A stretch of 64,000 bases of DNA from Desulfosporosinus acidiphilus SJ4 (GTDB lineage: Bacteria > Bacillota > Desulfitobacteriia > Desulfitobacteriales > Desulfitobacteriaceae), in assembly GCF_000255115.2 (NCBI RefSeq), contig NC_018068.1, positions 2,947,977 through 3,011,976 of the forward strand, given 5' to 3'. The stretch's first letter is position 1; each line of letters begins with the position of its first letter. The notes beneath the pieces are model-generated. The model saw nothing but the letters and a program-made list of their open reading frames with translations. It was not told the DNA's origin and made no database searches. The position numbers and the translations under genes were made by a program. This document shows positions 3,628 through 62,214 of the stretch, in pieces.

Positions 3628-3805
3628 CCAGATACCTCCTTTCTTTAGAGCATTGCCTTGATTATTATCAATAATCTTAATATTCTCAATTGCAAGATTT
3701 ATACCAATTAGGAGCTGCACAATATCCGCACTGCAGAAGTATACGTACTGAGTTGCAGTTTTGCGCTAATCTCCTCCGTTTATCGTCATAACATACTGCT
3801 GCCTA
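3628..3805. other. upstream region of the B12 operon
   Basis: This stretch holds the cobO ribosome binding site (3634-3640) and presumably the operon promoter. I could not pick a convincing -35/-10 pair. No cobalamin riboswitch B12-box was recognised here. Confidence 0.5.
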
Positions 3806-3883
3806 TTGCACTTATGCTAGAGGACGAAGATACTGTCTTCGCACGTCTTAGCCCTTCTTGAAGTCTACAACCTAAGGTTATAT
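3806..3883. repeat. dispersed structured repeat R1, copy a (partial)
   Basis: This segment matches two other places in the window (23547-23684 and 33798-33936). Shared blocks are TTGCACTTATGCTAGA, GACGAAGA, ACTGTCTTCGCACG, CTTCTTG and AAGGTTATA. It contains a near-perfect hairpin (CGAAGATA-C-TGTCTTCG). The left stem-loop seen in the other copies is missing or degraded. It lies between the B12 operon promoter region and the rRNA/tRNA terminator. Confidence 0.7.
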
Positions 3884-3953
3884 GCCTGCCTGGAAAATAT
3901 ATTTATCAGTTAATCGGTGGTGCCGCTCGGCGAACATGGAGATCTGACAGTAT

Positions 3954-4010
3954 AAAAAAACGTCCTGAAAGCGATACACATTCTAACAAATTTGTATCGC
4001 TTTCAGGACG
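3954..4010 (-). terminator. Rho-independent terminator of the 16S-tRNA operon
   Basis: A 17-bp perfect inverted repeat (3961-3977 with 3994-4010, arm CGTCCTGAAAGCGATAC) is followed on the minus strand by seven T residues (3954-3960). It lies 74 bases after the last tRNA gene and so ends the rRNA/tRNA transcript before any 23S gene. Confidence 0.92.
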
Positions 4011-23449: not shown

Positions 23450-23546
23450 CATTACCTCTCCGATCATAAACTTAGGAGGTTTCCTTGCCTCCTCTCTAAG
23501 CTAATTTTACCAATTAAGAGTTAATCTACACAAGTCACTTAAAAGT

Positions 23547-23684
23547 AAAGAAAACTTAGCTGTCGCTAAGCCTCTGGAGAAGGCGACAGCTAAGTTGCAC
23601 TTATGCTAGAGGACGAAAACACTGTCTTCGCACGAATTAATTCTTCTTGCAGTATTTAACCGAAGGTTATACTTTCTGATAGTA
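23547..23684. repeat. dispersed structured repeat R1, copy b (full length)
   Basis: A full copy of the repeat also found at 33798-33936, and in part at 3806-3883. It starts AAAGAAAACTTAGC and ends CTTTCTGATAGTA. A 14-bp perfect stem (AACTTAGCTGTCGC with GCGACAGCTAAGTT) opens it, followed by an imperfect CGAAAACA-C-TGTCTTCG hairpin and a short AACC-GAA-GGTT hairpin. There is no room for a protein gene. Confidence 0.85.
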
Positions 23685-29763: not shown

Positions 29764-29796
29764 GAAAGCCCCAATGTTCAGCTTTAGCTGAATGAG
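29764..29796. repeat. palindromic intergenic repeat R3, copy c (short)
   Basis: The segment GAAAGCCCCAATGTTCAGC continues into a perfect TTCAGCT-TT-AGCTGAA palindrome. It matches the tails of two longer copies at 37923-38003 and 41443-41537 (CCCCGATGTTCAGCTTT). It lies between the permease stop and its terminator. Confidence 0.6.
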
Positions 29797-29868
29797 TTGA
29801 CTTAGTTTAAACTATACGTTTATGGGCGAATTCCCAACGAGCTTGTTTTCAAAATAGAATTGCAAACT

Positions 29869-32895: not shown

Positions 32896-33600
32896 TCACC
32901 CCTTTTCTCGCGGGAGCACGTATTCCCTTAAATAAATATAATCATGTTGATTAGCTATAAGTAGAGCAACAGCTAAGATATACTTTCTACCCCGTTCTAA
33001 GACCTTCGGGTGAATTTGAGTTTTCAGCGCTAAGGCTTGCATGGGAATTTTGCCGGTACGTTCTACGTTAGACCATAGTTCTTTATCAAAGGCTAATTCT
33101 CTGGCGGCACGAAGCAATGTCTCACGAGAATCCCGATGTTTGGGGGAAACTGCCACTAAATCCTGAAAAGTAAGTTTAACGGTCGCTAAGGCTTTGTTGA
33201 ACTGTTGAATTTCTTCTGCTCTCTCACGGGATTGTTCGTTTTCTTTAAATTCATCTAAACTAAGATGGATTTCCACGTCTCGCCCATAATCCTCTTGATC
33301 TAGGGAATTAGAAAGAGGAACACGTTGTTTTCGATGATAATCAATCAGTCGCCGTTTAATTAAAATCCGTGCAAAGGCTAGAAACGGTACACCTTTATCG
33401 GCTTTAAACAAATCAATCGCTTCATTAAAAGCGATTAAAGCCTCAGATAATTCTTCATCCCTGCCCCATTCCAGAAAACGAAAACACACTTGACTAGCCA
33501 CATGACAGATAAACATTTGTGATTTAGCTAAAAAATCCTCGCGAGCTTTCGAATCCTCTTGTAAACGCTGCCAAGACAATTGGTCTTCCCATTCTGGCAT
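32896..33600 (-). CDS. sigI: RNA polymerase sigma factor SigI
   Basis: A 234-residue sigma-70-family protein with the SigI layout. A region-2 core includes LSEALIAFNEAIDLFKADKG and FARILIKRRLIDYHRKQ (about 50-98). A C-terminal DNA-binding region follows (about 130-230), including RTGKIPMQALALKTQIHPKV. SigI responds to heat or envelope signals in relatives, under the partner RsgI encoded next. The start has an AGGAGG-like site (33609-33614). A C-rich candidate SigI promoter lies upstream, consistent with autoregulation. Confidence 0.92.
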   Translation of the reverse strand: MPEWEDQLSWQRLQEDSKAREDFLAKSQMFICHVASQVCFRFLEWGRDEELSEALIAFNEAIDLFKADKGVPFLAFARILIKRRLIDYHRKQRVPLSNSLDQEDYGRDVEIHLSLDEFKENEQSRERAEEIQQFNKALATVKLTFQDLVAVSPKHRDSRETLLRAARELAFDKELWSNVERTGKIPMQALALKTQIHPKVLERGRKYILAVALLIANQHDYIYLREYVLPREKG

Positions 33601-33756: not shown

Positions 33757-33987
33757 ATGGGACCGTTGCATAATGAGTATTTATACGTTTTTATAAAGAA
33801 AACTTAGCTGGCGCTAAGCCTCCGGCGAAAGCGGCAGCTAAGTTGCACTTATGCTAGAAGACGAAGACACTGTCTTCGCACGAATTTGTTCTTCTTGCAG
33901 TATTTAACCGAAGGTTATACTTTCTTCTAGTATAAATAAAACCCTGCATATAAGTGGATGATTTTAACCACTATTTATGCAAGGTTT
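33757..33987. repeat. repeat R2 (copy a) interrupted by repeat R1
   Basis: Outer segments 33757-33797 and 33931-33987 match 62123-62214 almost base for base: ATGGGACCGTTGCATAATG and GAGTATTTATACG on the left, ATAAAACCCTGCATATAAG and GTGGATGATTTTAACCACTA on the right. Here they are split by the 139-bp R1 element. The right part holds a terminator-like hairpin, CCTGCATATAAGTGG with CCACTATTTATGCAAGG. Confidence 0.88.
33798..33936. mobile_element. R1 element, copy c, inserted into repeat R2
   Basis: Comparison with the uninterrupted site at 62.15 kb (TTTTATAAATAAAACC) shows 139 bp added here, with TATAAA on both sides (33792-33797 and 33931-33936). This is either a 6-bp target duplication or shared end bases. 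The insert has a 13/14-bp stem (AACTTAGCTGGCGC with GCGGCAGCTAAGTT), a perfect CGAAGACA-C-TGTCTTCG hairpin, an AACC-GAA-GGTT hairpin, and no coding potential. Confidence 0.82.
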
Positions 33988-34095
33988 CGTTTTAATAGGG
34001 GACGCTTATGCATTTTGCAACATCCCCATCTAACTTTAGCAGGGAGTACTCATTAACAAAATCCCGATAAATCAACCTGAATTTCAAGAAGTCAT

Positions 34096-34872
34096 TCAAT
34101 CATTGTTTTGGTTATCGTCGGATTGGTTTAAAAAGGTTTCCATAGATGTCAGGTCATTGGAAGTAACAGCGCCATTTTTAACCTTATCTAAAAAACTCCC
34201 GATTGGGTCTGTGGTACTTGAGGAGGAACTGCTGGACACACTTGAAACAGTACCACTGTCTGCACTTGAGATCGTCTGGTCATCACTGGAATTTAATAAA
34301 CTTTGCATTGCAGAAATATCATCAGCTGTGACTGTTCCATTTTTCACTTTATCCAGAAAACTTCCGATGGGGTCTGTAGAATTGTTGTTATTGCCCGGTG
34401 GCGGACCTTGAGGAATTTGACTCAAGGTCGTTTTCATTGATTTAAGATCGTCTGCGGTAACCGTACCGTTTTTGACTTTCTCTAGAAAACTTCCTATTGG
34501 ATCTGTGGAATTTGATGATAAACTGTTGTCCTCTGTAGAAGTTGTCTGAGTCGTATTGGAATTTAATAGACTTTGCATCGCAGCAATATCATTATCCGTC
34601 ACTGTCCCATTTTTTACTTTATCAAGAAAATTCTTGATCGGGTCTGAGGACCCCCCGCTAAAATCGTATGAAATATTACTATTACTTGCCGATGAAGAAG
34701 AACTTAACTCAAAGGTATCCCCATCACCATTGCTTTGAACAGTGTCCGCATTTAATAGAGATAAAAGTGAGTTACTGGATTCTCCATCAGTACTAATTTT
34801 TGATGATGTTTTATTTTGAGAGGTTAGAAAGGAATTATAAGAATAATTGGTTATAGATGATATACTGCTCAT
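34096..34872 (-). CDS. secreted or flagellar-like protein with four 27-residue repeats
   Basis: A 258-residue protein rich in Ser, Asn and Asp, with no cysteine and no classical signal peptide. Four copies of a 27-residue unit of the form DPIGSFLDKVKNGTVTADD followed by a short helix lie at residues 77-103, 124-150, 167-193 and 222-248, separated by Ser/Asn linkers of 16-28 residues. Each unit looks like a helix-turn-helix with an acidic TADD/TDND turn. The N-terminus (MSSISSITNYSYNSF) resembles flagellar or type-III-exported proteins. No known function. It diverges from the atypical response regulator gene, with 11-bp tandem repeats between them. Confidence 0.85.
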   Translation of the reverse strand: MSSISSITNYSYNSFLTSQNKTSSKISTDGESSNSLLSLLNADTVQSNGDGDTFELSSSSSASNSNISYDFSGGSSDPIKNFLDKVKNGTVTDNDIAAMQSLLNSNTTQTTSTEDNSLSSNSTDPIGSFLEKVKNGTVTADDLKSMKTTLSQIPQGPPPGNNNNSTDPIGSFLDKVKNGTVTADDISAMQSLLNSSDDQTISSADSGTVSSVSSSSSSSTTDPIGSFLDKVKNGAVTSNDLTSMETFLNQSDDNQNND

Positions 34873-36290: not shown

Positions 36291-36376
36291 GTTTTCCAGA
36301 TATTACACATCCGTTTGAGCAGGAAATAACGGTATTTTGTCGAATTTTTTACTTATGCAAATTGAACAACAAAAAA

Positions 36377-36500
36377 AGCTGAATCTAGAGTCTGCTCTAG
36401 AGCGGGGGATTTTACTTCTGATATTGGGGTGAATCGCTTCCATGCGTAGGGCTATACCTGCTGCCCGAATCCGTCAACTAACCTCGTAAGCTATGAAAGG
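36377..36500 (+). ncRNA. c-di-AMP (ydaO-yuaA) riboswitch
   Basis: Conserved ydaO segments are present in order: GCTGAATCT, GCTCTAGAGCGGGGGA, TTGGGGTGAATC, GTAGGGC, GCCCGAATCCGTCAACTAAC and CTCGTAAGC. The aptamer ends just before the ribosome binding site of an NlpC/P60 hydrolase gene, a well-known ydaO target class that is usually switched off by high c-di-AMP. Confidence 0.92.
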
Positions 36501-36510
36501 TGAAGAATTA

Positions 36511-37257: not shown

Positions 37258-37352
37258 CTTACCCCATCATTCGTTTACCGTATAAACGGCACAGATGGCT
37301 AAACGGGGACCATTCCCACTTATAGAAATGAGAGTCTCACGATTTTGTAAAG

Positions 37353-37667: not shown

Positions 37668-37922
37668 TCTATCAGCCCTCCTATGCAATCGATCAAACAA
37701 TCATTAAAATAAATACTTGTTAAAGCTTGGCTCGTTTGTTGAACTAGTGAAAAATGGTGCCTATCAAATAACTAATTTTTCCTTTAATCATAATTTAAAT
37801 AACAGGTACTGAATAGTGACCTTTGGCACAAAAATATGTGCCAAAAGCACTAATTTTCATAAAACTTCTTTCAAAAACAAATCCAGCCCACTTTCATCCA
37901 ATCGTGAGACTGCCGCTTCAAT

Positions 37923-38003
37923 AAGTGGGAGTGGTCCCCGTTCTCTGCTTCGGTGGGGTAGACTCCCCCCACCGAAGCCCCGATGTTCAGCTTTTGTCGA
38001 AAC
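37923..38003. repeat. palindromic intergenic repeat R3, copy b
   Basis: It opens AAGTGGGAGTGG, has a 12-bp perfect hairpin (GCTTCGGTGGGG 37947-37958 with CCCCACCGAAGC 37967-37978), and continues CCCCGATGTTCAGCTTTTG. The order of blocks matches 41443-41537, with different bases but a kept stem in the hairpin. It lies just past the CWB2 gene stop and may serve as its terminator. Confidence 0.75.
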
Positions 38004-41442: not shown

Positions 41443-41537
41443 CCCCCACTTCTTGTAAGTGGGGGTGGGTCCTTTGAAAACTTCAGGTGGGCTAGAGTTC
41501 CCATCTGAATCCCCGATGTTCAGCTTTCGCAGAACGA
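41443..41537. repeat. palindromic intergenic repeat R3, copy a
   Basis: Three hairpins in row: CCCCCACTT-AAGTGGGGG (41443-41465), TTCAGGTGGG-CCCATCTGAA (41482-41509), and GTTCAGC-GCAGAAC (41518-41535) after CCCCGATG. Same layout as copy b at 37923-38003. It ends 13 bases from the galU stop, so it could also terminate that gene. The structure recalls IS200/IS605 end hairpins, but no transposase is near. Confidence 0.75.
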
Positions 41538-41549
41538 GTTCTCTTGTTT

Positions 41550-42464
41550 TTAAAAACTCGAACACAATGCTCTTATCTTTGTCTCCGTTAGGCTCTGCTT
41601 TCTGTTTATAATGTGCAGCAAATATGCCATAAGCTGTGGTTCTAATTCTTCCCTCTGCAGTCCCATTTCCACAATTGCTTTTATATATCCAAACTTATCA
41701 CCAATGTCATATCGCTCCCCCAACAACTCCCAAGCTAAGAGACCTTCGTTTTTGCAAACCTGGCGCAAGGCATCAGTTAGTTGATATTCATTTCCCGCTC
41801 CTCTGTCCAACGAGTGAAGAACCGGGAAGATTGACGGTTTTAAAATATACCTGCCCATAATTGCCAGATTAGAAGGGGCCTGAAAACCTGACGGCTTTTC
41901 AATGAGGTCTTTAACCTGATACGTTTGAGTTTTATAGGCTGTTGGGGCGATAATTCCATATTTGCAAACGTCATCCGTTGGTACCGGCTGTACACCCACT
42001 ACCGTAGTATTGTAACTCTCATAAACCTCTATCAATTGTTGCAGGCCTGGTGTCTGGGAAACCATGATATCATCCCCCAACAAAACTGCAAAGGGCTCAT
42101 TGCCAATAAATTGCTCGGCGCAGAGGACGGCATGCCCTAATCCTAACGGTTCTTTCTGACGAATATAATGGATATTAGCCAGTTCGTTAATCCGTTGCAG
42201 CTCACTGAGGACCTCTGTCTTCCCCTTATCTTTCAAGGTTTGTTCCAGTTCTACTGACTTGTCAAAATGGTCTTCAATGGACTTTTTATTACGACCGGTT
42301 ACAATGAGAATGCTTTCAATACCGGATTGAACAGCTTCTTCAACGATATATTGAATGGCCGGTTTATCGACAATCGGCAGCATCTCTTTAGGCTGAGCCT
42401 TTGTTGCCGGTAAAAATCTTGTCCCTAAACCGGCGGCCGGGATAATGGCCTTCTTTATCTTCAT
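41550..42464 (-). CDS. galU: UTP-glucose-1-phosphate uridylyltransferase
   Basis: A 304-residue nucleotidyltransferase that makes UDP-glucose for wall polymers and glycosylation. The N-terminal signature AGLGTRFLPATKAQPKEMLP (residues 11-30) and EKPSGFQAPSNLA (about 191-203) are GalU hallmarks, and length fits. The start has GAGGAG upstream. It precedes a GT87-like transferase gene on the same strand; upstream lie a structured non-coding block and an IS110 element that separate it from the GtrA/YkcC/YkcB genes. Symbols galU, gtaB and hasC are used for this enzyme. Confidence 0.95.
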   Translation of the reverse strand: MKIKKAIIPAAGLGTRFLPATKAQPKEMLPIVDKPAIQYIVEEAVQSGIESILIVTGRNKKSIEDHFDKSVELEQTLKDKGKTEVLSELQRINELANIHYIRQKEPLGLGHAVLCAEQFIGNEPFAVLLGDDIMVSQTPGLQQLIEVYESYNTTVVGVQPVPTDDVCKYGIIAPTAYKTQTYQVKDLIEKPSGFQAPSNLAIMGRYILKPSIFPVLHSLDRGAGNEYQLTDALRQVCKNEGLLAWELLGERYDIGDKFGYIKAIVEMGLQREELEPQLMAYLLHIINRKQSLTETKIRALCSSF

Positions 42465-51627: not shown

Positions 51628-51639
51628 ACACAATTTTAT

Positions 51640-51718
51640 ATGGTAACCCGGCTATCTTATCAAGAATCTAAGACCCGTGGCTTTGCGTCCTCAGCTCTCA
51701 CTGAGTTTGCCTTTAGCA
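51640..51718 (-). ncRNA. c-di-GMP-I (GEMM) riboswitch
   Basis: The minus strand reads AAAGGCAAAC, a variable hairpin, AGGACGCAAAGCCACGGGTC, a second variable stem, AGATAGCCGGGTTACC. These are the conserved GEMM-I blocks, including the GCAAAC and GACGCAAAGCC ligand-binding core and the tetraloop receptor/GGTTACC end. An intrinsic terminator follows before the HD-GYP gene. No other feature was recognised in 51719-52061 apart from the dacA ribosome binding site. Confidence 0.93.
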
Positions 51719-52061
51719 CTGAAGTTTAATTAACTTTTATTCCTACTAATGTTTAAGGGATTAATCTCCACTGAAAGGTAGTATATTATACAATATTCTA
51801 AAGAACAACATTTTTTGCCCATTATAACAAATTTTTATCCTTTTATTACAATACTACTAATTCTGGAACACTTTACAAACTTTTTTGACATTTAAGTACT
51901 GTATATCACTTATTATTCGTCGTCTAAAATACTTTTTACCAATAAAAACTTATGTAAAAACGATGCCCAAATGAAAAAGTTATGATTACCCATTTGTCGA
52001 ATCCTTACTCTTCCTGTAAAATTAAACTGTTCACATTAAATATTATTAAGGAGGTTATTTT

Positions 52062-62078: not shown

Positions 62079-62122
62079 TCATAAGAAAAAACGGCGAACA
62101 CTTTAGAGTCCTCAGAGAAAAC

Positions 62123-62214
62123 ATGGGACCGTTGCATAATGAGTATTTATACGCTTTTATAAATAAAACCCTGCATATAAGTGGATGATTTTAACCACTA
62201 TTTATGCAAGGTTA
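62123..62214 (+). repeat. repeat R2, copy b (uninterrupted) with terminator hairpin
   Basis: It matches 33757-33797 plus 33931-33987 and lacks the 139-bp R1 insert. The 3' half is a hairpin, CCTGCATATAAGTGG (62169-62183) with CCACTATTTATGCAAGG (62195-62211), followed by TTATTGTTTT, and probably ends the radical SAM transcript. Confidence 0.88.

Follow-up and report, generated by a model that had tools for sequence, protein, structure and literature searches.

A modular non-coding element of Desulfosporosinus that appears to insert directly behind terminator-like hairpins

What kind of element can lie inside one copy of a repeat, be missing from another copy of the same repeat, and encode no protein? 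The question is raised by two copies of a repeat, R2, in the window, by which we mean the whole 64,000 nucleotide stretch of DNA that was analysed, part of a contig of Desulfosporosinus acidiphilus SJ4. One of the copies is split by a second sequence, R1, and the other is not (Table 1). The first-pass annotation had described an uninterrupted R2 at 62123-62214 and a copy at 33757 split by 139 bp with TATAAA on both sides. The comparison bears this out, with the unsplit copy starting at 62119. The interruption is real and not a chance resemblance. The net gain in the copy at 33757 is 139 bp relative to the copy at 62119, and TATAAA is found at 33792-33797 and again at 33931-33936, bracketing R1.

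Table 1. Coordinates of R1, R2 and their parts (window positions unless another locus is named).
Feature	Position	Strand	Basis or remark
R1 element, 137 bp, CTAGAAGAAAG...TTTTCTTTA	33794..33930	-	Conserved block common to 30 aligned own-genome copies
Module A, left end, hairpin AGTAT..ATACT	33899..33930	-	Helix 1 paired in 97.8% of cells
Module M, 37 nt, hairpin CGAAGACAGTGTCTTCG	33862..33898	-	Helix 2 paired in 98.1% of cells
Module B, 46 nt	33816..33861	-	Missing from the A-M-Z short form; IS110-family insertion point in three other copies
Module Z and stem, CTTAGCGCCAGCTAAG hairpin and TTTTCTTTA, terminator-like right end	33794..33818	-	Compensating changes
Second full R1 copy	23546..23682	-	Directly 3' of hairpin GCGTTGA..TCAACGC, then CTTTTAGTA
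Partial R1, mainly M and B	3803..3882	-	Same strand, upstream: another body beginning T-tract-ATA, then CTGTCAGA
R1 copies split by an IS110-family element	L146, G000:C3 about 3035-3037 kb; L147, 2928-2931 kb; L148, 40-42 kb		
R2 copy interrupted by R1	33757..34020 (halves 33757-33793 and 33931-about 34020)	+	Right boundary from R2-copy alignment
Empty R2 copy (no R1), truncated at its right end	62119..62214	+	Repeat comparison, R2 alignment
R2 palindrome AACCTTGCATA..TATGCAGGGT, then TTTATTTATA	33941..33986	-	Hairpin plus T-tract taken as R1 target; imperfect
Window			Placed within a contig of 4,926,837 bases

It could be argued that the R2 without R1 is simply a separate family, but this does not hold, as there are 12 uninterrupted R2 copies besides the split one in the same chromosome. 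Among 26 aligned copies (12 from this genome and 14 from relatives, both halves of the split copy, L040/L043, being left out) none carried another insertion at the point where R1 is found, and one (L042) had a short deletion there. The alignment places the true right end of R2 near 34020, beyond the coordinates first given for it, and the copy at 62119 is devoid of this end. In the relatives, the orthologs of the R2 site of the window could be aligned over the neighbouring gene only. R2 is found in 4 of the 29 Desulfosporosinus genomes, unlike R1, and it does not show the replication-strand bias found for R1 (right arm 4 and 4, left arm 3 and 2).

R1 itself, at 137 bp, is 2 bases (TA) shorter than the 139 bp first annotated. 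On the minus strand the unit runs from CTATCAGAAAG to TTTTCTTTA, and is composed of four modules, A (CTATCAGAAAGTATAACC..ATACT), M (GCAAGAAG..CGTGCGAAGACAGTGTCTTCG), B (TCTTCTAGCATAAGTGCAAC..GGAGGCTT) and Z (AGCGCCAGCTAAGTTTTCTTTA). By eye, we recognized the orders A-M-B-Z, A-M-Z, A-B-Z, A-M-B-M-Z and B-M-M-Z, module M being missing, repeated or relocated in copies other than the one studied here. At one orthologous locus two forms are found, A-M-B-Z in D. hippei (L172) and A-M-Z in G012 (L295). Of 30 own-genome copies, which had been chosen by overall similarity and not by their tails, 24 have the tail TTTTCTTTA without any change, and therefore the right-hand letters belong to R1. We consider C(T/A)(A/G)TC...TTTTCTTTA the best definition of the unit, which would be placed after NTA without duplication. 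Inspection of the alignment revealed no terminal inverted repeats, the two ends (CTATCAGAAAG and TAAAGAAAACTT, read inwards) being unlike, and one strand has hairpins close to the two ends (helices 1 and 3).

The A, M and Z hairpins are preserved in 96.3% of the alignment cells, and in the stem of Z, 7 of 38 sequences have G-C in place of A-U at one pair, both sides having changed. Three measures of covariation and the paired percentage were above all 500 shuffles, and a fifth measure, covering further pair types, was not above the control (101 of the 500 shuffles reached its value); this shuffle control ignores the relatedness of the sequences. Folding stability was similar on both strands (20 of 36 sequences more stable on the terminator strand), and so folding does not indicate which strand acts. 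Rfam gave no match to R1 at the gathering threshold, and a sub-threshold miRNA match at 33927-34002 was taken as chance. A terminator scan scored the Z hairpin as terminator-like together with the host hairpin in locus L017, and found the host hairpin only in L012.

The genome of this strain contains at least 44 R1 matches, fragments included (40 of 163 candidates were scored), and matches were found in all 29 genomes of the genus, in 41 of 45 genomes of the family and in eight of its nine genera. An exact pattern of one R1 module retrieved 44 stretches from the named genome collection, all of them from Desulfosporosinus. Collections of plasmids and phages, from which the record of the window itself, or very similar ones, may be missing, gave no R1 match. 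The possibility that R1 always occurs within the same flanks does not hold, since the flanks of the copies are unlike.

What most of these flanks do have in common is a terminator-like hairpin. We have analysed 71 unique copies, each with 260 nt of flank and with its two ends identified by a pattern, so that degenerate and truncated copies are excluded; the end letters within the patterns are conserved by choice, and the loci had been fetched for matching R1 or its neighbours. A terminator-like hairpin was detected within 60 nt upstream in 51 of the 71, compared with 1, 2, 2 and 2 in the four windows used as controls (1 and 2 in those upstream, 2 and 2 in those downstream). When the 60 nt upstream were read on the other strand, 21 of 71 had such a hairpin. 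When only own-genome copies were considered, a hairpin in terminator position preceded 30 of 42 vs. none of 42 in the control. A second detector, based on a T-rich tail and folding energy, was positive for 57 of the 71 copies vs. 1173 of 19,984 random positions (6%) and 99 of 1,420 downstream windows. The copies without a scored terminator upstream were 20 of 71. In the letters preceding R1, T reaches 85-92% at positions -8 to -6 and -4, and 61-69% at -9, -5, and -3. The order at the left junction is a T-tract, one free base, TA and then C(T/A)(A/G)TCAG, with T at 92% in -4 and 85% in -1, looser letters between them, and A at 89% in position 0, which lies inside the copy-selection pattern.

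The R2 site looks like one more of these terminator-like targets, as judged from the letters. Read on the minus strand, R2 is a palindrome followed by TTTTATTTATA, and the point of insertion of R1 is the T-tract after this palindrome. The terminator scan scored nothing between window positions 33600 and 34110, neither the R2 palindrome nor Z, which in the case of R2 we attribute to its imperfect stem. Along similar lines, terminators of T-box leaders are found as R1 sites upstream of leuS (Rfam T-box matches in L012, L235, and L254). The terminators at hisS (L135) and at L098 resemble those of T-boxes by eye; Rfam reported no T-box in L135, L098 or L074.

The leuS leader is also informative about presence and absence. 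In this genome the T-box terminator is followed by TTTTTGCCA and then by R1, and the same place without R1 reads TTTTTGCTATAAGCC in G017 and TTTTTGCTATAGTCC in G001. On the right side, about 59 nt after R1 could not be aligned with the relatives, and therefore leuS provides presence/absence and the left junction only, and not an exact pair without duplication. Among the 26 leuS loci displayed (L232-L257), G009 has another R1-like copy at the same place, and by eye there are degenerate R1-like copies in G005, G008, G021, and G022. D. hippei carries R1 (L060) behind the same hairpin that lacks it in G006, with flanks that are 90-94% identical. At locus L179, TTTTTTGTA precedes the element and CAGTTAAAATCC follows it, and joining both flanks restores exactly the absent form TTTTTTGTACAGTTAAAATCC of G012 (L293). 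Given the direct repeat ACAGT found in this pair, a deletion in G012, or else a short duplication, could account for it too. Rejoining was inexact in L213, where the left junction is the same as in G006 and G012 and the right side has diverged, and in L190, a degenerate copy in which no hairpin was seen. A further pair at a RAYT locus (G003/G006) looks like an internal deletion that left the first bases. These differences between related species and strains (leuS, L060/G006, and L179/L293), together with the unlike flanks, support that R1 is mobile, and agree with what had first been proposed for it in spite of its lack of coding capacity.

Would R1 have to be mobile to give this picture? Its copies might be functional RNAs passed on by descent, acting as attenuators or as back-ups for terminators, which ordinary recombination duplicates and selection keeps at gene ends without their being strictly mobile. 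The conserved structure, in which pairs have changed on both sides, the presence across the family and the location behind terminators and T-box leaders are all in keeping with this. However, presence varies between near relatives at the loci compared, a second terminator between the T-box and leuS has no obvious use, and there are copies inside R2 and others joined tail to head, features that make us regard an immobile R1 as improbable.

The TATAAA at both sides of R1 had suggested a 6-bp target duplication, and the joined flanks at the R2 site (TTTATATAAAAACG) are indeed 2 bp (TA) longer than in the R2 family (TTTATAAAAACG). The first-pass proposal fails as a rule, because the tail letters, exact in most own-genome copies as described above, travel with R1 and because no correlation was found between the left and right neighbour letters of 68 copies (the 71 minus three tandem ones). 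Of 52 combinations of length and offset, one reached 9 of 400 permutations, as chance allows. For the R2 pair itself we find a duplication of 6 bp very hard to believe, and the extra 2 bp could be a 2-bp duplication or reflect an earlier R2 variant. No fixed-length target-site duplication was detected over the 68 copies, and single pairs are ambiguous (the 2 extra bp at R2, ACAGT in L179/L293). With the leuS pair weakened, the claim of insertion without duplication rests on this permutation test. Lacking terminal inverted repeats, a fixed duplication and a parent insertion sequence among the places listed, R1 is unlike a classical MITE moved by a DDE transposase.

The tail of R1 (hairpin and TTTTCTTTA) is built like its target (hairpin and TTTTTTNNTA), a resemblance that would explain the copies found in tandem, tail to head (3 of 71 in the flank survey and others in the own-genome alignments). 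Integron gene cassettes also have a folded recombination site at their 3' end and form head-to-tail arrays. R1 could be a cassette of this kind, with a 3' recombination hairpin and a circular form that a tyrosine or serine recombinase would move, using terminators as general attachment sites. The 3'-terminal hairpin similar to the target, the tail-to-head joints and the shuffling of modules would fit, but no attC core letters were seen by eye at the R1 ends, the modules have no uniform 3' site, R1 contains no gene, and we know of no tyrosine or serine recombinase that would suit this role, all of which leaves an integron-like origin rather unlikely. A broader and still tentative possibility is that terminators are general attachment sites for protein-free cassettes, with a recombinase or a retro-mechanism reading the hairpin and T-tract in tail and target, and with modules being shuffled among cassettes that start with CTATCAG.

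The copies also show a bias in orientation. Of the exact R1 tails in this genome, 53 of 58 are co-directional with replication, the GC skew of the loci switching sign between 2.50 and 2.71 Mb. This is weak evidence because 39 of 56 listed ORFs of at least 100 aa in the window (overlapping frames included) are co-directional too, and terminators share the bias. We have set aside the orientation as proof of a lagging-strand mechanism, as terminators alone would partly give the same bias.

Taken from the DNA letters, R1 is a non-coding element, dispersed, modular and apparently mobile, whose target rule is unusual and can be tested. The reading that we favour, with a probability of roughly 0.6, is that of a non-autonomous, non-coding mobile module that inserts 3' of a hairpin, a T-tract and NTA, probably as single-stranded DNA and through a recombinase acting in trans. 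R1 would insert in fixed orientation directly 3' of these features, so that in practice it would land just downstream of intrinsic terminators or of look-alike palindromes such as that of R2, and its right end (hairpin and TTTTCTTTA) would re-create a possible landing site with each insertion. The single strand would be exposed mainly on the lagging-strand template, and the recombinase would read the hairpin and T-tract both at the end of the element and at the target, with a logic similar to the one followed by the Y1/HUH transposases of IS200/IS605. Our best guess is a trans-acting single-strand recombinase, because it combines this IS200/IS605-like logic with a target whose geometry resembles the sites of group IIC introns.

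In the single-strand transposition of IS200/IS605 elements the right end resembles the target as well. These elements and the PATEs share with R1 the lack of terminal inverted repeats and of target duplication, as well as hairpins close to both ends; they insert 3' of a short fixed sequence, as R1 may also do, and short forms of IS200/IS605 mobilised in trans are known (PMC7290912). The R1 target differs by including a hairpin and a T-tract, where IS200/IS605 use a tetra- or pentanucleotide (PMC7290912), and, unlike the case of a PATE derived from IS200/IS605, no TnpA-bearing element with the ends of R1 appeared among the loci examined. The first-pass suggestion of an IS200/IS605-type insertion without duplication, with ends TAAAG...TAGTA, thus stands as far as the anatomy goes, to within 2 bp, and found no counterpart in a parent insertion sequence at the Y1 and reverse-transcriptase loci examined. 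A full-length parent sharing the R1 ends, the search for which had also been suggested, was absent among the loci and places covered. No pair of start and end 0.3-6 kb apart in this genome, among the places listed and inspected by eye, could be taken as a parent. The sole wide-spaced pair among them was an R1 copy split by an IS110-family element. A 4.4-kb pair of ends (L149) was discarded because it consists of two separate elements with other genes between them.

Y1 matches are found in 24 of the 29 genomes of the genus, and the one-contig genome G010 has none, despite its 36 R1 matches. No hit of the R1 model was obtained at the 23 Y1 and reverse-transcriptase loci examined, where a single tail-like match with one mismatch was detected (L154), and no R1 ends at eight Y1 loci (L163-L170) or at L215 and L227. 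REPs and REPINs are similar to R1 in being abundant non-coding palindromic repeats, some of them inside other palindromes and some without an identified transposase, and the CGTC REPs, which have no dedicated one, provide a precedent (PMC3733652). R1 is longer (137 nt vs. 20-40 nt for the REP palindrome), modular, and has neither the GTAG nor the CGTC end tag (PMC3733652). Besides, R1 does not as a rule flank the RAYT-like genes of the genus, at variance with the REP/RAYT association. Hits of the R1 model were found at 2 of 11 RAYT loci (L218 and L220, the latter on the 3' side of the gene only), and we have rejected this link as not systematic.

Reverse transcriptases offer another candidate. 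Target stem-loops of group IIC introns are often terminators. R1 could be a retro-mobile RNA, comparable to a bacterial SINE. Its transcript would end at Z, and a group II intron reverse transcriptase, with the stem-loop target of the IIC class, would insert it behind terminators. Like R1, these introns insert 3' of a DNA stem-loop, and they have a connection to the lagging strands at replication forks, as R1 would (PMC10190682). RVT_1 matches are present in 29 of 29 genomes of the genus, group II intron RNA was matched at 9 of the 10 reverse-transcriptase loci scanned, and copies consisting of the 3' part only were seen by eye behind T-tracts (L111, L119, and L133). However, R1 is only 137 nt long, encodes no reverse transcriptase, has no intron match in Rfam and does not start with GUGYG, the start motif of group II introns. 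Besides, the reverse-transcriptase loci examined had no R1 model hit, the tail in L154 being the lone trace, this genome has a single reverse-transcriptase match, and the 5'-truncated copies may be deletions. We consider a retro route unlikely, and retain single-stranded DNA with a recombinase in trans as the preferred reading.

The nearest in kind to R1 are the small interspersed repeats BOX, RUP, and SPRITE of Streptococcus pneumoniae (PMC3049150). BOX is composed of A, a variable B and C, the pneumococcal repeats insert into one another, and one BOX is found in a composite with T-box riboswitches; SPRITE is terminator-like, and a mover has been proposed, without proof (PMC3049150). The forms of R1, as seen by eye, follow the same plan of A, variable B and C. 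The terminal inverted repeats of BOX are discussed as similar to ISSpn2, whereas R1 has none, and R1 is located directly behind terminator T-tracts, a placement that the parts of the pneumococcal account used here do not report for BOX, RUP or SPRITE (PMC3049150). In the open-licence PMC literature we found no published description of the R1 family, which is no proof of absence.

To our knowledge, the choice of target by small bacterial repeats is mostly unexplained. In R1 a candidate rule can be read from the sequence and tested, i.e., a position immediately after terminators and a tail resembling the target. Such a rule would explain how repeats gather at the ends of genes with little harm, how they stack in tandem and why they appear in the interval that separates a T-box leader from an essential gene such as leuS. 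The rule also prompts a hunt for the enzyme that moves such repeats in this bacterial family.

Other repeats are found around R1. An IS110-family element (with PF01548 and PF02371 in the L146 copy) is located at the same point of module B, between GCATAAGT and GTGCAAC, in the three copies seen. Some relatives of IS110 use REPs as targets, and this one would seem to use R1. The start of another body (CCCCCCATG or CTCCATG..GCGGCAC and similar) is likewise a T-tract and NTA followed by CTATCAGA-like letters, at window positions 3827-3960 (minus strand) and in L030, L022, and L149, and there may be several cassettes with a common left end and target rule. A different family of small repeats (CCCCGATGTTCAGCTTT..) is found at window positions 29766-29811 and 41508-41553 and adjoins an R1 copy in L094. 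Letters similar to those of a 43-nt inverted repeat (37302-37344 and 37900-37942, with 555 nt between) flank R1 in L095. Next to the split R2, the ORF at 34096-34872 contains four internal repeats of 90 nt and matches the effector-associated domain EAD10 in Pfam with 47.7 bits, no single stretch passing alone. Finally, Rfam identified two riboswitches in the window, for c-di-AMP at 36367-36507 and of the c-di-GMP-I class at 51638-51720.
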